From a virus: a stretch of 30,978 bases of DNA. The stretch is taken from positions 1 through 30,978 of IMG/VR virus record IMGVR_UViG_3300030103_002759; one strand, 5' to 3'. The translations under genes and the position numbers were made by a program. The notes below the pieces were generated by a model. It did not search any database and was not told where the DNA came from. It saw only the letters and a list, made by a program, of their open reading frames with translations. This document shows, one piece after another, positions 10,971 through 26,143 of this stretch (positions within the stretch are counted from its first letter, which is position 1; every line of letters starts with the position of its first letter).

Positions 10971-11957
10971 TTAATATTTAGTCGCTATTTGTGCTTCATA
11001 GTTCATTCTAGCTTTTATCTTATCTTCTCTAGTCTGATTTTTATTCTTCATTCCTTTAATCATATTAGCAAGATTGCTAGGGTTGTAGATAGTTAAACCA
11101 GTAGAATTAGTTCTAACTAATTCTGCCTCGTCAACTTTTATTCCTAGTTCAGTAGCAAGTTCAATACCCTCGGACAAATATCTATATGCTTTCAATCCGA
11201 TTTTTAACTGGTCGCATTGTTTCTGTATGCTATCAATCCAAGTTTGATGTGTGCTTACAACTTTAGCTTTCGCACTTCGCCATTGTAAAAAGATATTGTA
11301 TTCATCTTTGGTACAAGCTATGGCACGACTTCTACAATAAGAAGTACCAATGACATCAGCATAGTATGGTGCGTTGAAGTCTTTAGTTAATCCAATCGCA
11401 TTACTATCGTTATCATTATACCTACTACTAGTATCTTTGCCGAGTGCTTTATTACACATATCAATATGCTTTGTTTTGTGTGGGTTGCTATCCTTACCAG
11501 ATTGTTGAGCGATAATATCTGGGTTGCAACCTTTCGCTTTTAGTTCTTCTCTAAAGTATGCGTGTGCAAAGTGGTCGGTATCTTCACTTGAATACTCACT
11601 ACCATTTAGATTGCCATATAAACCAAAATCAAAATGCGATTTTGTTTCTTCTGGTTCGCCCTCGTCATTTACATCTTCTTTATGTGCGAAATAAAAGCAT
11701 TTATCTTTTGCTACTACATCACAGGGGTCGCCATATTTTTTCTTAAAGACACGCAAAGTGGCTACATCTTCTTTTGGATATGACCTTTCAACAACTTCTT
11801 TGGCTAAAGAAAATGCTGATATTTGTGCAATATTAAAATCTTCTCTAGCTTGCATAAAAGCTTGTTGCTCTTGCGTCTGTTCTTTTTCAAATACATCTTT
11901 AATTCTATTATAGAATTTGTTTCTGTATTCGGTATTCATTCTTATTTTTGCTGACAT
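10971..11957 (-). CDS. Hypothetical protein, 328 aa
   Basis: Not recognised. The protein is hydrophilic and mixed alpha/beta, with an N-terminal helical part (residues 1-60), a middle rich in Asp, His and Asn (about 95-200, including FAHAYFREEL and HKTKHIDMCNKALG), and a C-terminal helical part ending in a basic stretch. Five to seven cysteines are scattered without a clear CxxC. The start at 11957 follows AACAGAAAGGACATT. It is the largest gene of the accessory cluster and faces the structured non-coding element across a shared divergent promoter region. Confidence 0.7.
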   Translation of the reverse strand: MSAKIRMNTEYRNKFYNRIKDVFEKEQTQEQQAFMQAREDFNIAQISAFSLAKEVVERSYPKEDVATLRVFKKKYGDPCDVVAKDKCFYFAHKEDVNDEGEPEETKSHFDFGLYGNLNGSEYSSEDTDHFAHAYFREELKAKGCNPDIIAQQSGKDSNPHKTKHIDMCNKALGKDTSSRYNDNDSNAIGLTKDFNAPYYADVIGTSYCRSRAIACTKDEYNIFLQWRSAKAKVVSTHQTWIDSIQKQCDQLKIGLKAYRYLSEGIELATELGIKVDEAELVRTNSTGLTIYNPSNLANMIKGMKNKNQTREDKIKARMNYEAQIATKY

Positions 11958-11986: not shown

Positions 11987-12017
11987 TAGGTTTATCCTAT
12001 TGACATTTTATTGTCAA
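11987..12017 (-). promoter_or_regulatory. Promoter and dyad for the 328-residue gene
   Basis: Reading minus, TTGACA (12017-12012) precedes a poor -10 (TAAACC, 11994-11989) at 17 bases. An inverted repeat TAGG-N5-CCTA (11987-11999) overlaps it. The -35 forms an inverted repeat with the plus-strand -35 at 12000-12005, so the two promoters are divergent and overlapping. Confidence 0.5.
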
Positions 12018-12030
12018 GTGTTTATATAGT
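12000..12030 (+). promoter_or_regulatory. Strong plus-strand promoter of the non-coding element
   Basis: TTGACA (12000-12005) is followed after exactly 17 bases by TATATA (12023-12028), with TATAGT two bases further on. Transcription would start near 12035, immediately before the first predicted stem. No start codon with a ribosome-binding site follows for 480 bases, which supports a non-coding product. Confidence 0.7.
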
Positions 12031-12034
12031 GTTA

Positions 12035-12423
12035 GGAGTAGGCAATTTGTATGACGATACTAGATATATCTAGGTTGCCTAGTCCTTTCGGGTTTAGTCT
12101 GGTGCTGTGTCGAATTAAATTCAGCTATCAGCGCCAGCTTGAGCCCTGATCCAATACAACGATGGGTCTAACTCGTCAAACCGCTATTGGATCTGGGGTC
12201 AAGAAACTTGAGCCCAGAATACAAAGATGAGACTGAGGGTATAAACCTCTATAAGTATGGTTGCGACTTAGGATAATGGACCTGTCCTCAAACCGGTGGT
12301 AAACTGCAGTCCCGGACCCATCCTGGCTTTTGTATTCTGGGGTCAAGCGATTTACTCAGCTAGCGAAAGTAGACGTATTCCAGGGTGTTCTACTCGCTTG
12401 GCCACTTTAGAAAGATTCTAAGT
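12035..12423 (+). ncRNA. Putative structured non-coding RNA with two tandem long hairpins
   Basis: There is no credible gene here. The folds run in order: TAGGCAA/TTGCCTA (12039-12045 with 12075-12081) around a 14-base palindrome (12060-12073); GGTGCTG/CAGCGCC (12101-12107 with 12128-12134); a 19-position hairpin (12138-12156 with 12185-12203); three As; a second 19-position hairpin (12207-12225 with 12329-12347) enclosing about 100 bases; AGTAGA/TCTACT with AGCG/CGCT (12362-12398); and ACTT-AGAA/TTCT-AAGT (12404-12423). Both long hairpins share the basal arms CTTGAGCCC and GGGGTCAAG with the same G-G mismatch, but their upper halves differ while staying paired. It has its own promoter. I could not match it to a known family. 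The 3' end is uncertain. Confidence 0.65.
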
Positions 12424-12425
12424 TG

Positions 12426-12460
12426 CAAGCTACAAGCGACGAGCTTCAAGCAACAAGCAG
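12426..12460. repeat. Heptamer array A (5 units, CAAGCNN)
   Basis: Five head-to-tail 7-bp units, CAAGCTA, CAAGCGA, CGAGCTT, CAAGCAA, CAAGCAG, with only positions 6-7 (and once position 2) varying. The array lies in non-coding DNA between the structured element and the -35 box at 12462. Confidence 0.9.
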
Positions 12461-12461
12461 C

Positions 12462-12495
12462 TTGACACCATCCTAGGAATAGGATAGTATAGGAT
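12462..12495 (+). promoter_or_regulatory. Promoter and operator-like dyad of the GC-rich cassette
   Basis: TTGACA (12462-12467) precedes TAGTAT (12485-12490) by 17 bases. The spacer carries a perfect inverted repeat ATCCTA-N4-TAGGAT (12470-12485), and another TAGGAT follows at 12490-12495. The start site would be near 12497, leaving a short leader with GAAAGGAC before the ATG at 12519. This is the best operator candidate in the cassette. Confidence 0.75.
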
Positions 12496-12518: not shown

Positions 12519-12722
12519 ATGAAAGTAAAAATAAACATTGAGTGGAGAAAAAAAGAAGAGCCAGGTTTAGATCCAGAATTTCTGGTGAGAACAGCTCTTA
12601 AATCTGCTGGTTACCACGTTGGCCACGTTGAGACCCAAGGCGTTTGGGATGAAGATAAACCAGCGACGGCTCATGGACCCTGGGATGAAACCAGACTTCC
12701 GCACGAAGAGATTGCCAAGTGA
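12519..12722 (+). CDS. Hypothetical protein, 67 aa
   Basis: Not recognised. The ATG at 12519 follows CTGAAAGGACAT, the leader type used by the accessory genes on the other side of the divergent region. The product opens with a short beta-like stretch (MKVKINIEWRKKEE), then LDPEFLVRTALKSAGYHVGHVE and a Trp- and Pro-rich acidic C-terminus. About half of its bases are G or C, well above the surrounding phage genes. Its TGA overlaps the GTG of the next gene (GTGA), so the two are coupled. Confidence 0.65.
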   Translation: MKVKINIEWRKKEEPGLDPEFLVRTALKSAGYHVGHVETQGVWDEDKPATAHGPWDETRLPHEEIAK

Positions 12723-12910
12723 AGAGAATTAAACACAATAACCTGCTGCCATGGTTCCTGGAGGACCATGGCCAGCTGCCGGCTTCATACCTGAAGAGCA
12801 CAAAAAACTTTTTTGATGGGTTGCGATTTTCAAGCGACAGGCGCAAGCAGCAAGCTACAAGCGGCAAGCGTCAAGCTTCTGCCACAATTGGAAAGTATAG
12901 TAAGAAATAG
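12719..12910 (+). CDS. Hypothetical protein, 63 aa, with heptamer-encoded tail
   Basis: Not recognised. It starts at a GTG that overlaps the previous stop. The first 37 residues (MKRIKHNNLLPWFLEDHGQL, then PASYLKSTKNFFDGLRF) look like an ordinary small phage protein. Residues 38-53 are read from heptamer array B and give KQQATSG-KRQAS, the KxQAxSx pattern that the 7-bp unit produces in any plus frame. The tail may be a by-product of the array rather than selected protein. The next gene starts 11 bases downstream. Confidence 0.55.
   Translation: MKRIKHNNLLPWFLEDHGQLPASYLKSTKNFFDGLRFSSDRRKQQATSGKRQASATIGKYSKK
12831..12878. repeat. Heptamer array B (6 units plus one 6-base variant)
   Basis: Units CAAGCGA, a shortened CAGGCG, then CAAGCAG, CAAGCTA, CAAGCGG, CAAGCGT, CAAGCTT. 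It lies inside the 3' part of the 63-residue gene. The one-base loss shifts the frame phase but leaves the encoded heptad pattern recognisable. Confidence 0.85.
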
Positions 12911-12921
12911 AAAGGTATAAT

Positions 12922-13599
12922 ATGAAAACAAGTGAAGCTCTAAAACTAGTGGGAGGCCTGAGCAAGCCCTCCAAGATGCCAGGATGGGCCTACGGTCTAC
13001 CGGCTAAAGAATGTAAGACTGGCTCTAAGCTGGTGAAGGTATCAGGCAGCACCTGCGAGGGCTGTTATGCTCTCAAAGGTTGCTATGTTTTTAAAGTAGT
13101 ACAAGAAGCACAGTATCGAAGGCTGGCCAGTATCAAGCATGAACTCTGGACCGGGGCAATGGCTCTTCTGATCAACAGCAAGAAGTCGAAGGTGTTCCGC
13201 TGGCACGACTCAGGAGATGTACAGGACGAAGCTCACCTAATGAAAATTTTTGCGGTGTGTAAACTTACACCAGGGACCAGGCACTGGCTGCCAACTCGGG
13301 AGGCGTGGATCAAACACTTCCTGCCACAATGTCCACAAAATTTAGTGATAAGATTCTCCGCTCCGATGGTGGACCAGGACGCCCCGAGCTCATGGCCTAC
13401 AACGTCGACAGTCACCAGCTCACACAATAGTGAAAATTGCCCTGCGTTTAGAACTGATAAGACTGGGACCGTTCACACATTAGAAGCGTTCGATACTATG
13501 ACCAAAGAAAATAAAAAAGATTTAGATCTAGGCCACTGCGGCAGCTGTAGACGTTGCTGGGATCCTGAAGTTAAGAACGTAGCATATGGCCAACATTAA
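12922..13599 (+). CDS. Gp88-like cysteine-rich phage protein
   Basis: The 225-residue product resembles the phage family named gene product 88 (Pfam PF17338, from memory), whose biochemical role is unknown to me. Visible signatures are the Cys cluster C31, C45-x2-C48, C54 around STCEGCYALKGCY; FRWHDSGDVQ (residues 92-101); WLPTREAW (122-129); and the C-terminal C206-x2-C209-x2-C212. The cysteine spacing suggests a metal or iron-sulphur site, but that is inference. The gene is about 55 percent GC near 13021-13080, far above the phage background (about 30 percent at 28021-28080), and looks acquired. Its end overlaps the next start by 14 bases. Confidence 0.75.
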   Translation: MKTSEALKLVGGLSKPSKMPGWAYGLPAKECKTGSKLVKVSGSTCEGCYALKGCYVFKVVQEAQYRRLASIKHELWTGAMALLINSKKSKVFRWHDSGDVQDEAHLMKIFAVCKLTPGTRHWLPTREAWIKHFLPQCPQNLVIRFSAPMVDQDAPSSWPTTSTVTSSHNSENCPAFRTDKTGTVHTLEAFDTMTKENKKDLDLGHCGSCRRCWDPEVKNVAYGQH

Positions 13600-13792
13600 A
13601 TTTCGAGCAGATATAGAAGCGGTCCACAATGATTGGTGCCGCGCCAATGGTTACCCGGTTAGATGGTACAAGCCTCAAGCTGGGAGACCCAAGCTACAAG
13701 CTACGAGCGGCAAGCTTCAAGCTCCAAGCAACAAGCGGCAAGCCCCGAGCAGCAAGCATCAAGCTTCAAGCCGCAAGCTGCAAGCTCTCTAA
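13586..13792 (+). CDS. Hypothetical protein, 68 aa, more than half encoded by heptamer array C
   Basis: Residues 1-28 (MANIKFRADIEAVHNDWCRA, then NGYPVRWY) look like a real small phage protein and overlap the end of the Gp88-like gene. From residue 29 the sequence is read from array C and gives repeats of KxQAxSx (KLQATSG, KLQAPSN, KRQAPSS, KHQASSR). Because seven is one more than a multiple of three, every plus frame gives the same heptad. The minus-strand nuclease ends in the same DNA, so the two genes share 92 bases. The tail's role is unknown. Confidence 0.5.
   Translation: MANIKFRADIEAVHNDWCRANGYPVRWYKPQAGRPKLQATSGKLQAPSNKRQAPSSKHQASSRKLQAL
13669..13787. repeat. Heptamer array C (17 units, CAAGCNN)
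   Basis: Exactly 119 bases, or 17 units in strict 7-bp register. Fourteen units begin CAAGC, two CGAGC, and one is divergent (GGAGACC, 13683-13689). Positions 6-7 take many different dinucleotides while positions 1-5 are nearly fixed. The array sits at the junction of two convergent genes and is open on both strands for their C-terminal codons. Confidence 0.92.
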
Positions 13793-16336: not shown

Positions 16337-16584
16337 TTCTCACCCTTAAAAAATTTAGCCAAGTATTTACAATACTCAGCATCTTCATTCACAAATATAG
16401 GTTGTTTCATTTCGTCAGCGGGGACACCACGTCTGGCACTCTCCCCATCTGACGCCGAGAGTCGTTGCTCAGGCTTTGAAATGCCTTCATCGCTAAGGTC
16501 CAGGGAATCGCCAGTGGCAGAATATGTACCCCTATCTCGGTCAATACTTTTTAATCTTAAAATTCTTTTAATGAGTTTAAGCAT
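16333..16584 (-). CDS. Hypothetical protein, 83 aa
   Basis: Not recognised. It begins with a basic amphipathic helix (MLKLIKRILRLKSIDRD), has a Ser- and Asp-rich low-complexity middle, and ends in VNEDAEYCKYLAKFFKGEK, probably helical. It overlaps the LAGLIDADG gene upstream by eight bases and the exonuclease downstream by ATGA, so it is an integral member of the chain. It may partner the exonuclease, but only position supports that. Confidence 0.6.
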   Translation of the reverse strand: MLKLIKRILRLKSIDRDRGTYSATGDSLDLSDEGISKPEQRLSASDGESARRGVPADEMKQPIFVNEDAEYCKYLAKFFKGEK

Positions 16585-16909
16585 AATGTTTTATAATTTC
16601 TTTTAATTTATCTCTCTTAACAATACTATATGGCATAATTATGTTAGCAAATTTTAAAGCAAGTTTATGGCTCGCTCGGTATCTCCATTGAGGTTTTTTA
16701 CCCATACCACCAACTTTTGCTTTGTAATGTATATTACCAAAACCTACAAAATTTTTTACCCAATGTATAACTTCTTTATTTGTCATAGCAATCTCGCACG
16801 AATGAACTCGTGTAGTTTTATTACTTTTTTTATATCTTTGCATATAATTTGAGGCACAACCATCAGCATCAAATAAACCTGCAAGATAAGATCTATCTTT
16901 TTCTTGCAT
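16577..16909 (-). CDS. LAGLIDADG-type homing endonuclease, single motif
   Basis: The 110-residue product has YLAGLFDADGCAS at residues 8-20, the LAGLIDADG helix with the catalytic Asp. The expected alpha-beta-beta-alpha core follows (SCEIAMTNKEVIHWVKNFVG, then WRYRASHKLALKFANIIMPY). One motif implies a homodimer cutting a near-palindromic site of roughly 20 bases. The start at 16909 is chosen for AAAGGA eight bases upstream; the longer frame to 16960 would run inside another gene. It is free-standing, overlaps both neighbours, and no intron or intein boundary was seen, so it may act as a selfish element or have been co-opted. Confidence 0.85.
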   Translation of the reverse strand: MQEKDRSYLAGLFDADGCASNYMQRYKKSNKTTRVHSCEIAMTNKEVIHWVKNFVGFGNIHYKAKVGGMGKKPQWRYRASHKLALKFANIIMPYSIVKRDKLKEIIKHYA

Positions 16910-17063
16910 AGCCCGTTCCTTTTTCTCGGTTAGCCCATCTTTTACGCCATGCAAATCCATTCATTTTACTTCCAATAGATTCCATCCAAGATAAAGGTAC
17001 GTCTACAAATCTTTTATACTTTCTCTTTATAAGATCTATTGTATCAGGTATCGTTCTAATCAT
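16893..17063 (-). CDS. Small basic hypothetical protein, 56 aa
   Basis: The ATG at 17063 follows AGGAGAAGCTGATC, a strong ribosome-binding site, and overlaps the end of the previous gene. The product starts MIRTIPDTIDLIKRKYKRFV and ends with a very basic FAWRKRWANREKGTGYARKR. It is probably a small nucleic-acid-associated protein, by charge only. Its last 17 bases overlap the homing endonuclease gene. Confidence 0.65.
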   Translation of the reverse strand: MIRTIPDTIDLIKRKYKRFVDVPLSWMESIGSKMNGFAWRKRWANREKGTGYARKR

Positions 17064-17548: not shown

Positions 17549-17676
17549 TTTTTCTTACCTCCTGTAAGTATTTGTTTTATTACTGTTCCTGTTGGATCTA
17601 GTAAATCACCTGGATCCATAGTTTTACTGCAACTTGTTAATGTCAACACCACTATAATCATAACTAGGTTCTTCAT
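17545..17676 (-). CDS. Small lipoprotein, 43 aa
   Basis: The ATG at 17676 follows GGAGAAATAG. The product MKNLVMIIVVLTLTSCSKTM has a basic start, a hydrophobic core and a lipobox LTSC with Cys16, so it should be lipidated and reach the envelope. The mature part is only 28 residues (SKTMDPGDLLDPTGTVIKQI onward). Its size resembles Rz1-type outer-membrane spanins, but no matching inner-membrane partner overlaps it. Instead its first 53 bases overlap, in another frame, the zinc-ribbon gene. Confidence 0.7.
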   Translation of the reverse strand: MKNLVMIIVVLTLTSCSKTMDPGDLLDPTGTVIKQILTGGKKK

Positions 17677-17797
17677 CTATTTCTCCTGCCGATTCACATT
17701 TAGCACATTGAATTGTAATTTTCTCACTTTCTGTTTGGTCTTTCCATATCCTTCGATATCCATTACCCATACATCTATCACAAATTTTACGCACCAT
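17624..17797 (-). CDS. Small zinc-ribbon protein, 57 aa
   Basis: Starts at the ATG at 17797 inside the end of the 92-residue gene. The product contains C6-x2-C9 in KICDRCMGNGYRRIW and C31-x2-C34 in IQCAKCESAGEI, a DnaJ-like or ribbon-type four-cysteine zinc site, then a short acidic tail (DEEPSYDYSG). It may bind nucleic acid or another protein. The longer frame at 17677-17880 in the same place lacks these features and is taken to be a shadow. Confidence 0.7.
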   Translation of the reverse strand: MVRKICDRCMGNGYRRIWKDQTESEKITIQCAKCESAGEIDEEPSYDYSGVDINKLQ

Positions 17798-18065
17798 TTG
17801 GAATCCATTTGTTTATTTTGTTTTTTGCTTTTCGCAAAATATATCTTGGATCGTATCCTGCCATTTGACATACAGAGCAAAAATCACCGTTAGCAATGTC
17901 CATCCATTCTAATGCTGATCTCATTTCTCCGTATGTTAAAGGCAAAGCATTATATTTCTTAGAGCATGCTTCATATATTCCCTGCGATAAAACAGCTTTC
18001 CATAACTTTTCTTCTGGTGTTAATTTTCGTTCTAAAAATACACCGCTATTTGCTAAGTCTGCCAT
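17787..18065 (-). CDS. Hypothetical protein, 92 aa
   Basis: Not recognised. It starts MADLANSGVFLERKLTPEEK and is helical, with LWKAVLSQGIYEACSKKYNA and a C-terminal FCSVCQMAGYDPRYILRKAK. The single C-x2-C could bind metal with other ligands. The C-terminal pattern, with an aromatic residue, a Pro-Arg and a basic helix, recalls small DNA-binding proteins, but this is weak. It overlaps the ribbon-helix-helix gene by 20 bases at its start and the zinc-ribbon gene at its end. Confidence 0.65.
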   Translation of the reverse strand: MADLANSGVFLERKLTPEEKLWKAVLSQGIYEACSKKYNALPLTYGEMRSALEWMDIANGDFCSVCQMAGYDPRYILRKAKNKINKWIPNGA

Positions 18066-18216
18066 TTAATTTTCTCGCTTTCTCATTTACTAATGTTTTT
18101 ACTACTTGACTACGACTAAGTTTTACGTCAGGCGCAATTTTAGTTTGTAACTTTGTTATTGTCGAGTATGTTTCTTTGTCGACAGTAATGTTTTTGTACT
18201 TGCTAAAGTCAGTCAT
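18046..18216 (-). CDS. Ribbon-helix-helix (Arc/CopG-like) regulator, 56 aa
   Basis: The ATG at 18216 follows AGAAAGGTTATATAAG. The product reads MTDFSKYKNITVDKETYSTI, then TKLQTKIAPDVKLSRSQVVK. The pattern is a beta strand (KNITVD), helix A (ETYSTITKLQTK), a turn with LSRSQ, and helix B (VVKTLVNEKARKLN), the classic ribbon-helix-helix fold that dimerises and binds inverted repeats. It heads an eleven-gene chain, and a perfect TCCTAT-N4-ATAGGA dyad lies in its leader, so self-regulation is likely. Related half-sites near promoters at 10-12 kb may be its other targets. Confidence 0.75.
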   Translation of the reverse strand: MTDFSKYKNITVDKETYSTITKLQTKIAPDVKLSRSQVVKTLVNEKARKLNGRLSK

Positions 18217-18246
18217 CTTATATAACCTTTCTGTTATTATATTTTT

Positions 18247-23090: not shown

Positions 23091-24583
23091 ATTATTGGTG
23101 CTCCTATGTTATATTGATATTCATAATCTTGATTGGTTATGAACAGTTTTTCTTTTGCTCTTGTTATACCTACAAAGAATGTACGGTGTTCTGGGTCTGC
23201 ATCTTTTTGTGCTGAGTCATATATGATTCTTTCTAAATCAGTAAACAAAACAACGTTATCACATTCCTCACCTTTTACACTATGTATCGTAGATAATTTT
23301 ATTCTCGCAGGTTTCATTAGATCATCACCGTTCTTTAGAATGGTTCTAATGTACATCTTACTTGACTCTGGAAAGTTTAATATCTCCCAGCCCCCCGCTG
23401 CTCGCAACCCGTATTCAGCTCTTAATCCATCTATATTAATCGAGTCAATACCTTCTAGAGTCTTGTTGCTTGCGTACCCTCTCACTAGGTGTCCGTCTTT
23501 AACTGTAAGATAATCCCATAAATCTTTTAGATCTTCTTTATTAACATAAGCACCTTGGTTTAATCTTATCCAAACTCTATATGCATTTACCATTCTCTTC
23601 GGTAAGAGTTCTTGTTGCTTTGCATCAAACCTTAAATTTAAATCATACATATGATCTTTTAATGAGGTCAACATCTTATTGGTTCTAGTCAATACCATCC
23701 AGTTACCTGTAGAAAAATCTATGTCTTGGTATGGTATATCATTATATATTTTACCTTCAGCATCTCTTGGTTCCCATTGTTTTTCTAAACGCTGTGACAT
23801 GTGAGGAAATATAGATTCAGCTAATTTATGTATTGTTCTAGGTACTCTTCTAGATTTTATCTGTGGATCTGTAACACCTTTTAAATTTATAAATATATCA
23901 GGATCTGCACCTTGAAACGTGTAGATGGTTTGGTCATCATCACCAGCTATATATGATTGTTTGCATTTAGATTCTATATAAAAAAACATTTCCCATTGTA
24001 GTGGACTTAGATCTTGGGCTTCATCGAGGAAGACAGTATGAATTGGTGGACATTTGTCCTCCTCGACAAACTTGGAAATCATATCAGAATATTCAAACAT
24101 ACCTGTTTGTTCTTTGTATGTAATTAGATCTGCTTGGATTTGTTCGGTTAAATATATATCAGTGCTGTAATGTAATTCTAGTTGTAGTGCAGCTTCATCT
24201 AAAGGTATTTTTTTATTCTTTGCATACTCAATAATTTTCATATGACTATTTTTATATTGAGGATAACCAGACTCATTGATGTAACTTTCAAAAGATAAGT
24301 CAGCGCATATGTTTGAGAAATTTTTAAAACCTTTCCATTTATCTCCTTTCAATAAATGTGTTGATGTATTCAACTGTAATTCTCTACTACCAAAAGCATG
24401 CATGGTGCTTACAATAACATTGTCATTTGTAATTCTTTTCTTAGCTTCATCTGCTGCAGCATTACTAAATGCAATGTAAGCGATCTTACTAGGATCTGTT
24501 TGCTTTAGTTCATGTTCAAGATAATACATCAGTCTATGTGTTTTACCTGTGCCTGGTGGGCCTGGTATTATTGTTCTAAGCAA
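23087..24583 (-). CDS. UvrD/Rep-type superfamily 1 DNA helicase
   Basis: A 498-residue ATP-dependent helicase. Walker A is GPPGTGKT (8-15), motif II DEAQD (187-191), motif III GDDDQTIY (214-221), motif V TIHSVKGEE (432-440), and motif VI VGITRAKEK (471-479). It is shorter than cellular UvrD and would unwind DNA for the phage replisome or recombination. The start is a TTG at 24583, supported by AAGGAG seven bases upstream and an overlap with the primase stop. Its stop overlaps the DUF3310 start. Confidence 0.92.
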   Translation of the reverse strand: MLRTIIPGPPGTGKTHRLMYYLEHELKQTDPSKIAYIAFSNAAADEAKKRITNDNVIVSTMHAFGSRELQLNTSTHLLKGDKWKGFKNFSNICADLSFESYINESGYPQYKNSHMKIIEYAKNKKIPLDEAALQLELHYSTDIYLTEQIQADLITYKEQTGMFEYSDMISKFVEEDKCPPIHTVFLDEAQDLSPLQWEMFFYIESKCKQSYIAGDDDQTIYTFQGADPDIFINLKGVTDPQIKSRRVPRTIHKLAESIFPHMSQRLEKQWEPRDAEGKIYNDIPYQDIDFSTGNWMVLTRTNKMLTSLKDHMYDLNLRFDAKQQELLPKRMVNAYRVWIRLNQGAYVNKEDLKDLWDYLTVKDGHLVRGYASNKTLEGIDSINIDGLRAEYGLRAAGGWEILNFPESSKMYIRTILKNGDDLMKPARIKLSTIHSVKGEECDNVVLFTDLERIIYDSAQKDADPEHRTFFVGITRAKEKLFITNQDYEYQYNIGAPII

Positions 24584-26108
24584 AAGGTGGCTCCTTCATC
24601 TTATCTTTTCTTACAATCGGTTTGTTTACTTCTTGTTGTTTGACTACGTAATATCTAACGGTCTTGTTATTTATTTTGCCTGCAATCTCTACTGCATTAA
24701 ATTGATTCTCTAACATTCTAGCTGTTTTATTTCTTGGGTATTGTTTCTCTGGCCATGACTTAGTTCTTAATAAATATTTCCAGAAGTCTTTAAATTTAAA
24801 ATTACTAACTCCATCTTCTGTGTAAGCTAGACCACGTAAGATATCTTTCCAATCTTTACCCGGTATCTTTGTAGTATAATCTGTAAGTATTTCTTTTAAT
24901 TGTACATCAATCTTTGTAGACTCTGGAGCTTCGATAGGTATGGTTTCTTTTAGTAATTTGTTTATTGCCTTTCTCCATATGTGTTTGCCTATTGGTGGCA
25001 TAGCTTGATTAATTTGTTCTAAACATTTTAGTGAGAACTTATCAGGTTCATGTAGTTCTGCTGATTCTACTTCAACTTGTTCATCACCTATGGTTACATA
25101 AAACAACGGTGGATCTGAATCATACTTTTGTATTTCTTTTATCTCTGCACCAGGAAGTTCATCATCACCTACACCATACTCTTGCAATACACATTTTTTA
25201 GAATTACAGAATGATGCAATAGGTTCGTCTTTACATTTGTATTGATAGTCTTTACCGTCTATGGATTTTATTAGTGTATCTATTTCTTTCTTATCTAACG
25301 GGGGTTTACAATACTCATCATTGTATTTAAATATTTTCATATCCCAATCTGTATATCTTTTCTTACAATACACACCGAAGTTATAGATGGCATTGTTTCT
25401 TTGGCCATTTGGTATACCTTGTTTAGCAATCGCTATCAAACAAGGCGGTGCACCTTTTAATAAATCGTTTGATACTTTCTCTTCTTTAACTTTTAGTTTT
25501 GTTAATTGATCTTCTGTCAGTTTAACTTTATCATACACATCAAAAAATTCTTGTATCGTCATAGCTGAGCCATCATCTTTGACACCATAACGTGTTGTCA
25601 TTTTTACATTGTGGTATGGAAGGTTTAAGAAACTACCTGTACCACCTTTATGCATGTCAACCTGGTTTTGTTTTGGAAATATCTCTGCTCTAGAATAACC
25701 CAATATGGCCGCCATATCTTTTAGTTTACTTCTAAACACAGCTGCTGGTGCAAATTCACCTGTAAATAAAAATACATGTGCACCACCAGATTTAGATCTA
25801 CATACCGTTAATGGAAAATTATGTTTCTTTATTTTTAAAATTAAAGCTTTGTGATCAAAGCCATTGTACAAATCAATATCTATACAGGCCCATCTACATT
25901 TGTTTTGTTCGTTAATCGGTATGATACCTAATGCAGGATCTTTACCTTCAAGATGTTCTTCAAACATCTTTGTTGTCGGCGGTTGTTTAATAATAAAAGA
26001 TTTAGTCTTGTGCTTACCTCTATCATCAAACTCATCTGTCTTTCTAGTTTGACCGTAGGCACTAAACGATCCGCCAAATATATCTATAAATTTATCTAAT
26101 TCTGTCAT
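24576..26108 (-). CDS. Archaeo-eukaryotic-type primase (TOTE/primase-polymerase style)
   Basis: A 510-residue protein with the primase core CIDIDLYNG (D77, D79) and SKSGGAHVFLFT (105-116, H111), then GGTGSFLNLPY, as in AEP primases of the TOTE or PrimPol style. A four-cysteine cluster near residue 300 (KCKDEP, FCNSKKC) and a helical C-terminal part follow. The start at 26108 (MTELDKFIDIFG) is preferred over the ATG at 26132, which lies inside a terminator stem. It would lay primers for the polymerase two genes downstream. Confidence 0.85.
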   Translation of the reverse strand: MTELDKFIDIFGGSFSAYGQTRKTDEFDDRGKHKTKSFIIKQPPTTKMFEEHLEGKDPALGIIPINEQNKCRWACIDIDLYNGFDHKALILKIKKHNFPLTVCRSKSGGAHVFLFTGEFAPAAVFRSKLKDMAAILGYSRAEIFPKQNQVDMHKGGTGSFLNLPYHNVKMTTRYGVKDDGSAMTIQEFFDVYDKVKLTEDQLTKLKVKEEKVSNDLLKGAPPCLIAIAKQGIPNGQRNNAIYNFGVYCKKRYTDWDMKIFKYNDEYCKPPLDKKEIDTLIKSIDGKDYQYKCKDEPIASFCNSKKCVLQEYGVGDDELPGAEIKEIQKYDSDPPLFYVTIGDEQVEVESAELHEPDKFSLKCLEQINQAMPPIGKHIWRKAINKLLKETIPIEAPESTKIDVQLKEILTDYTTKIPGKDWKDILRGLAYTEDGVSNFKFKDFWKYLLRTKSWPEKQYPRNKTARMLENQFNAVEIAGKINNKTVRYYVVKQQEVNKPIVRKDKMKEPPFA

Positions 26109-26114
26109 GTCCAC

Positions 26115-26143
26115 CAAAAAAATGGGCGGCATTGCTGCCGCCC
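26115..26143 (-). terminator. Intrinsic terminator before the primase
   Basis: Reading minus, GGGCGGC (26143-26137), a six-base loop, GCCGCCC (26130-26124), then ATTTTTTT. This is a textbook intrinsic terminator, ten bases past the 26153 stop and just before the primase start. It probably tunes early abundant protein (the 26153 gene) against the replisome genes. Confidence 0.85.

Follow-up and report, generated by a model that had tools for sequence, protein, structure and literature searches.

The window analysed here, i.e. the whole 30,978-base viral record IMGVR_UViG_3300030103_002759 from IMG/VR, carries genes for an SU10-type portal, a large terminase, a family A polymerase and a GP88-like protein. 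Based on this gene content, and on the 72% identity of its gene 10971-11957 to gp35 of the cultured phage HTVC027P, the window is a pelagiphage contig, from a podovirus related to the HTVC023P type. The region of interest is the gap between the divergent genes at 11957 and 12519 (Table 1). Homologues of the first of these (gene A) are 27-93% identical and have the invariant residues N8, R12, D64, D85, C87 and H237; there was no match for the protein in Pfam or PHROGs, nor in a PDB fold search with its confident AlphaFold model (pLDDT 82.9). A role of the gene A protein as partner of the RNA described below is possible. The genes between the RNA and the GP88 gene vary among relatives, and the GC skew follows the gene strand and gives no sign of a replication origin. 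Elsewhere in the window, a primase with an AEP-TOTE domain and PriCT-1 (24576-26132, minus strand) adjoins a UvrD-type helicase.

Table 1. Predicted features of the RNA locus and its neighbouring genes (window coordinates).
Feature	Position	Strand	Details
Gene A, orphan 328-aa protein	10971..11957	-	Adjoins the RNA divergently, with class I and class II stalks alike
Dedicated promoter	12000..12028	+	-35 TTGACA 12000-12005, 17 nt, -10 TATATA 12023-12028
Dyad TTGACA-N6-TGTCAA	12000-12017		Spans the -35 box; possible operator
5' hairpin P1	12035..12085	+	GGA...UCC closing, predicted transcript start; MFE fold; 5' leader conserved in relatives
GUCCUUUC, possible anti-SD seed	12082..12089	+	Exact complement of the GAAAGGAC RBS of both flanking genes
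Hairpin P2	12099..12137	+	Top GUGUCGAAUUAAAUUCAGCUA
Module 1	12138..12203	+	Arm a CTTGAGCCC 12138-12146, top, arm b GGGGTCAAG 12195-12203
Module 2	12207..12347	+	Arm a 12207-12215, large top, arm b 12339-12347
D1-type domain, subtype b (top of module 2)	12219..12335	+	Alignments A1, A2
Second hairpin of module 2	12348..12403	+	Top 12348-12396; arm c CTTGGCC 12397-12403, able to pair with arm b
Palindrome TTTAGAAAGATTCTAAG	12406..12422	.	Probably a DNA operator; TTTAGAA-N2/3-TTCTAA in relatives
CAAGC repeat block	12425..12461	+	Between the RNA and the next promoter
Probable separate promoter of downstream genes	12462..12490	+	TTGACA 12462-12467, 17 nt, TAGTAT 12485-12490
GP88-like gene	12922..13599	+	Downstream of the RNA; homologue of HTVC027P gp33

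A first-pass annotation, made from the letters of the window alone, had proposed that a strong promoter leads into about 390 non-coding bases with two tandem hairpins. The promoter is exactly as described, it is conserved in 122/159 class I leaders (the classes are defined below) compared to 0.5% in shuffled sequences, and the positions of its -35 and -10 boxes predict a start near 12035. All three frames of 12035-12423 are closed by several stops, and in homologues there is no conserved codon structure either, with all frames closed and an element length that varies freely. The coordinates of both hairpins proved accurate, with the arms recovered as direct repeats by a repeat tool; the 19-nt arms are 89% complementary in hairpin 12138-12203 and 95% in hairpin 12207-12347, the basal arms are identical and share the same G-G mismatch, and the upper halves are unlike yet paired, which holds over 150 non-redundant modules elsewhere. 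The annotation had further suggested that the arms could pair in an alternative fold, and such pairings are indeed possible between arm b of module 1 (12195-12203) and arm a of module 2 (12207-12215) across an AAA loop, and between arm b of module 2 and arm c (12397-12403). The computed folding energy of 12035-12423 is -132.8 kcal/mol (z -3.9, 0/100 shuffles as stable; opposite strand z -2.8), and inverted repeats of at least 17 nt occur there in eight overlapping registers versus 0 in 100 shuffles. No known ribozyme, tRNA-like element or riboswitch had been recognised: ARAGORN found no tRNA or tRNA-like RNA in the window, and Rfam gave no gathering-level match in 12035-12423, with only chance matches at E up to 10. 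Covariation in homologues, which the annotation had named among the ways to check its proposal, is overwhelming in the stalks of both classes and in the domain D1 (see below). The earlier observation is thus confirmed, yet it covers a small part of something larger: the "paralogous hairpins" exemplify a more general design, in which exchangeable domains are mounted on a constant stalk, and strand b of each stalk has a second conserved partner in arm c.

Besides the isolate HTVC027P, well over 200 marine viral contigs have the same RNA at this locus, divergent from the orphan gene A and upstream of the GP88-like gene. The two-arm pattern CTTGAGCCCTGRTC...GRYCTGGGGTCAAG (class I) matched at least 120 viral contigs, and the class II stalk pattern CTGATCCCTGRTC...GRYCTGGGATCAG is equally common (at least 120 viral contigs); in both searches the RNA keeps its position with respect to these two neighbours, and its strand, which is that of the downstream GP88 gene and opposite to gene A. 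IMG/VR contigs come from overlapping samples, and these counts are lower bounds and not frequencies. In cultured phage HTVC027P, which was reached only via the neighbouring gene and not via a DNA search with the window, a class II stalk lies in the unannotated gp34-gp35 gap, with the RNA region at 17670-18219 of MN698241.1, and phage 023Pt_psg01 has a similar stalk; comparison of the window DNA with 50,697 phage records in a search for distant similarity gave nothing useful. Single stalk modules were also found away from the main RNA, in other intergenic gaps of the same region (L130, L143 and L036). Only 2/84,980 bacterial and archaeal species genomes contain the class I two-arm pattern, both of them SAR11 assemblies (G002 and G129). 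The module-bearing contig of G002 has a phage terminase 71% identical to that of the window, and a phage terminase was looked for in G129 and not found. The near-absence from species genomes and the phage terminase beside a module therefore indicate that the element belongs to phages, and the D1 domain model found no match in any of 147 Pelagibacteraceae. As far as these searches reach, the RNA is restricted to phages and is not part of SAR11 chromosomes.

The stalks fall into two classes, class I, CTTGAGCCC/GGGGTCAAG, in which a G·G and a U·U mismatch are fixed (both present in module 1 of the window), and class II, CTGATCCC/GGGATCAG, with the U·U mismatch. Class I modules were aligned gap-free from both ends, and 150 were non-redundant at 80% over the variable arms. 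Position 6 (G·G) and position 10 (U·U, 144/162) are conserved mismatches; position 6 lies inside the search arm, and the invariance of positions 1-9 is partly by construction, as these positions were the search pattern. The tenth base was included in the search pattern for loci L170 onwards, and is equally common in loci found via neighbouring genes, where it was not in the pattern. Beyond the searched arms, positions 11-16 are paired in 149-150/150 modules and position 17 in 143/150, with up to six pair types per position at positions 11 to 19, each of which scores 10 to 15.5 SD above shuffled partners. Kinship inflates such shuffle-based z-scores, an inflation reduced by the redundancy filter and by slid controls, in which the number of paired cells over the 150 modules fell from 1393 to 499-752. 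G·U pairs outnumber A·C by 64 to 5 in class I and by 79 to 3 in class II, and the folded molecule is therefore the plus strand, which also has the more stable fold in 385/420 modules. Class II stalks are near-perfect palindromes found on both strands; here the U·U mismatch served to decide which strand is the RNA, a choice consistent with their G·U to A·C ratio. A conserved, covarying structure on one strand, as expected of a structured trans-acting phage sRNA, is thus present, as are an own promoter and the lack of a conserved reading frame.

Each RNA has one to five units, in which three arms alternate with two tops in the order a, top 1, b, top 2, c. Arm b is usually followed by a second hairpin closed by CTTGRCC (c): of 238 b arms with enough sequence behind them, 184 have it, compared to 7.7% in shuffled sequence. 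Downstream arms in class I fit GTCAAG, the b arm of their own class, in 81% (shuffled 12%), and GATCAG, the class II b arm, in 17% (12%), whereas those in class II fit their own GATCAG in 61% (shuffled 14%) and the class I GTCAAG in 22% (14%). Arms a, b and c hence change together between the two stalk types. Single substitutions in arm c, collected regardless of pairing, keep the pairing with b by 102:20 in class I and 51:10 in class II, versus a random expectation of 19% and 17%, respectively; the rival view, in which c would be no more than a degenerate remnant of a duplicated arm a, does not explain these wobble-preserving substitutions. The computed energies of a:b and b:c are close (median of 2.6 kcal/mol favouring a:b, with 68/184 units mixed). 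Within the window itself a2:b2 makes up 98.5% of the computed ensemble, and b:c is thermodynamically minor (0.07%). The class-specific fit, the substitutions and the energies support the b:c pairing as an alternative to a:b, such that each unit can form either hairpin.

The modules are about 54-141 bases long and carry no genes. The 724 tops from class I, class II and b:c hairpins group into 420 families, including 279 singletons. More than half of the families with three or more members (39/61) occur in two or more positions, 40 families are common to both stalk classes, and for 92/242 class I tops a homologue was found on some other stalk, among them relatives of the tops of P2 and of the last hairpin in the window. 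The P2 top GUGUCGAAUUAAAUUCAGCUA recurs on the CTTGAGCCC stalk in three other phages (L095, L093 and L102), and the top at 12348-12396 recurs on a:b stalks in L025 and L163. Exchange is visible at the level of single bases in module 2 of the window, which recurs in L100/L008 with 99.3% identity over exactly 141 nt and with diverged flanks on both sides, and where the match to L100 stops precisely at the arms.

The domain D1 is about 115 bases long and contains the core GGAGUGRGGAAUUUAAACYCUAUARCAUAGGUCGYGA. In its branched consensus 98.4% of cells are paired and 16 pairs have two-sided changes, with a covariation score of 0.330 versus 0.136 for shuffled and at most 0.076 for slid alignments. 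It is found on GGCGC stems, in the 5' hairpin P1 (L012), on a:b stalks (L126 and L254) and on b:c stalks (L410, L300 and HTVC027P). The second of the tandem hairpins in the window appears to carry a divergent D1, although on its own this copy matches the D1 model R1 only weakly (10.3 bits, E 0.023 in 601 bases, unfiltered). The assignment consequently rests on a chain, in which the top of L205 is near-identical to that of the window, L205 matches L163 (E 7.8e-9), and L163 matches R1 (E 9e-8). Mimicry of a host RNA was also considered, and comparison of the D1 model and the window DNA with Pelagibacteraceae gave only weak matches of less than 40 bases.

When pairs of loci were grouped by gene A identity, tops were in common in 11/11 pairs at 98-100% and 5/13 at 90-95%, falling to 11/202 locus pairs at 85-90% and 8/845 at 80-85%. 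Turnover of tops is thus fast, with tops being replaced while gene A changes by only about 10%. Taken as evidence from sequence, these comparisons strongly support the view that each top is a domain with a fold of its own, and that tops are recombined from one stalk, locus or phage to another, and this rapid exchange looks like an evolutionary arms race, the role of the tops not being known.

Several DNA motifs surround the RNA. A TTGACA-N15/19-TATA promoter precedes the first module in 190/284 related leaders (shuffles 0.5%), and is overlaid by a dyad TTGACA-N4/9-TGTCAA in 125/284 (shuffles 0.02%). The palindrome TTTAGAA-N2/3-TTCTAA is present in 56/282 downstream regions (0 in shuffles) and 26/284 upstream regions; at 12406-12422 in the window, and upstream of gene A in relatives, it is likely to be an operator for a phage regulator. 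Blocks of CAAGC repeats (..TTCAAGCAACAAGCAGC..) are located in the intergenic gaps at 12425-12461, about 12836-12880 and 13690-13722, three or more copies of CAAGC are found in 202/282 related downstream regions and none in shuffles, and the blocks often lead directly into the GCTTGACA promoter. A typical terminator was not recognised, a T-run being present in 27/152.

The RNA is undescribed and without an Rfam family. Rfam searches with 14 class II loci gave no match to any family, and in a further 16 loci from relatives, searched at E up to 2, the sole match was Flavobacterium-1 (RF02976), of which one copy (90 bits) lies within the HTVC027P RNA (L283 2999-3119, minus strand). It was not found in the RNA of the window (12035-12423) or in the other loci scanned, and so behaves as one occasional domain and not as the element itself, a hint that orphan RNAs already known may belong to the exchangeable repertoire. 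The window has a Flavobacterium-1 RNA of its own elsewhere, at 16414-16540 on the minus strand (88 bits), where it directly follows a LAGLIDADG endonuclease ORF (16577-16960, minus strand) and lies upstream of a PD-(D/E)XK gene; the LAGLIDADG neighbour may be a clue to the function of Flavobacterium-1. No description of the RNA was found in the open-licence literature on pelagiphage non-coding RNA, modular phage RNA or Flavobacterium-1 RNA. We are not aware of any class of RNA whose structured domains are exchanged, in the manner of protein domains, on a constant stalk with two states. Known from marine metagenomes and cyanophages, manA and wcaG are likewise structured RNAs of marine phages with conserved cores, but these are single motifs in the 5' UTRs of metabolic genes (PMC2864571), and neither gave an Rfam match here.

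We have very little doubt that the locus specifies a non-coding RNA of modular build. Whether this is a multi-domain phage RNA that acts in trans, through tops which are held on a constant stalk and bind changing host or rival targets, is a matter on which we would give even odds for the statement as a whole, its function being inferred and its transcription not shown. A decoy or inhibitor RNA is preferred because a constant scaffold with a large and fast-changing repertoire of structured tops is what is expected in a conflict with changing partners. On sequence evidence the RNA belongs to HTVC023P-type pelagiphages and their relatives, has its own promoter and consists of a 5' hairpin, a second hairpin and repeated units; in the proposed mechanism it would act in trans during infection. 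The constant stalks would present the tops, shield them and serve as a fixed joint for recombination, and the tops would act as decoys or inhibitors by binding various factors of the host or of rival phages, to be replaced as the targets change; the choice between a:b and b:c is inferred to serve either stepwise folding during transcription or the selection of which neighbouring top is presented. The folded strand, the stalk pairing, the second partner of arm b, the exchange and fast turnover of tops, the restriction to phages and the promoter find their support in sequence comparisons, whereas transcription, targets, the decoy role and the reason for the two-partner arm have not been shown. 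No target was found for any top, and together with the 279/420 singleton families this means that some of the variety among tops could be little more than near-neutral filling of the scaffold. Infection with HTVC027P leaves cells without a detectable 16S rRNA signal (PMC11066056), and to link this loss to the RNA is speculation.

The explanation ranked second is that of a cis-acting leader, i.e. a long 5' UTR of the downstream small genes and GP88 in which a:b and b:c form an attenuator that times expression. The RNA is located on the same strand as, and immediately upstream of, the GP88 gene in nearly all loci, and a strand b with two partners follows the classic logic of attenuation. Moreover, RNA-seq of HTVC027P has shown that gp33 and gp34, just downstream of the RNA, form a distinct early-middle cluster (PMC12753301), and a leader role in cis is for this reason not excluded, although gp33/gp34 are preceded by a promoter-like sequence of their own. 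The RNA shares with trp-type attenuators and other two-state leaders the single strand with two mutually exclusive partners, but differs from them in having no leader peptide, no recognised T-run terminator hairpin, repeated units and a separate promoter for the next gene. This second TTGACA-type promoter follows the RNA in 159/282 loci (shuffles 0.7%), and an own promoter combined with a separate downstream one favours an RNA independent of the downstream genes, without proving it in the absence of transcript data. The genes in the interval also vary, the tops change completely while the downstream gene stays, and one to five tandem units are hard to fit to a single switch. We consider a cis-acting leader unlikely on balance, but worth keeping in mind.

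An RNA-only assembly or scaffold, in which units join within or between molecules via the a, b and c arms and the tops decorate the multimer, would make sense of the promiscuous complementary arms, which are alike in all units of one molecule. The RNAs nearest in kind, ROOL and GOLLD, are also phage-encoded, hundreds of bases long, elaborately structured and of unknown function; their overall fold is conserved, and they assemble into homomultimers (PMC12286853). Their covariance models gave no match here, however, and here only the stalks are constant and the tops exchanged; a pseudoknotted constant core is not evident, and tops of unrelated fold and length would be hard to place in an ordered cage. 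We consider such an assembly improbable.

The motif GUCCUUUC raises the prospect of an antisense regulator, which would block the GAAAGGA RBS of phage or host messages, with the hairpins mainly stabilising the RNA or binding a chaperone. It is the exact 8-base complement of the RBS of genes 10971-11957 and 12519-12722, and its presence in 61/122 class I leaders is a counterpoint to action of the RNA in trans via its tops, as it points to a regulatory reading. However, the motif is missing from the other half of class I, from 66/70 class II leaders and from HTVC027P, and the exchange of complex tops remains unexplained by it. Since it is present in only 4/70 class II leaders and not in HTVC027P, the motif is at most an added function, and we regard antisense regulation as the main role of the RNA as quite improbable.

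Integron attC sites are folded single-stranded DNA that is cut by the integron integrase, and carry genes between sites. The modules resemble attC sites and cassette arrays in their constant inverted arms, variable interior, tandem arrays and cassette exchange; in contrast, here a promoter precedes the folded strand, the variable inserts consist of RNA folds, and there are neither gene-bearing cassettes nor an integrase recognised among the window proteins scanned. A DNA-level element, with single-stranded or cruciform attC-like recombination sites or miniature mobile elements and the RNA being incidental, would fit the exact exchange of a 141-nt module bounded by its arms and the few modules in other intergenic gaps of the region, but is very improbable, as the one-sided G·U bias and the fixed orientation behind a promoter favour RNA, arm-specific recombination cannot explain tops that move between stalks of unrelated sequence, and no recombinase, transposase or integrase was recognised among the flanking window proteins scanned.

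The trans-acting decoy or inhibitor RNA is thus the explanation we prefer. A more far-reaching form of it, an RNA cassette system in which a shared repertoire of small folded domains on a switchable constant stalk is recombined against changing host or competitor factors, we advance only tentatively, as a proposal with a real chance of being right that we nevertheless expect rather to fail than to hold. With HTVC027P on HTCC1062 there is a cultured pair with public RNA-seq data (PRJNA1253180), which makes these ideas testable at once. The hundreds of natural domain families with strong covariation would be a source of new RNA folds, and probably also of new binding activities. SAR11 are the commonest bacteria of the ocean and pelagiphages are among the most abundant viruses on Earth, and to our knowledge the counter-defence and takeover functions of pelagiphages are almost unknown. 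If true, the RNA cassette system would be the RNA counterpart of protein anti-defence islands.
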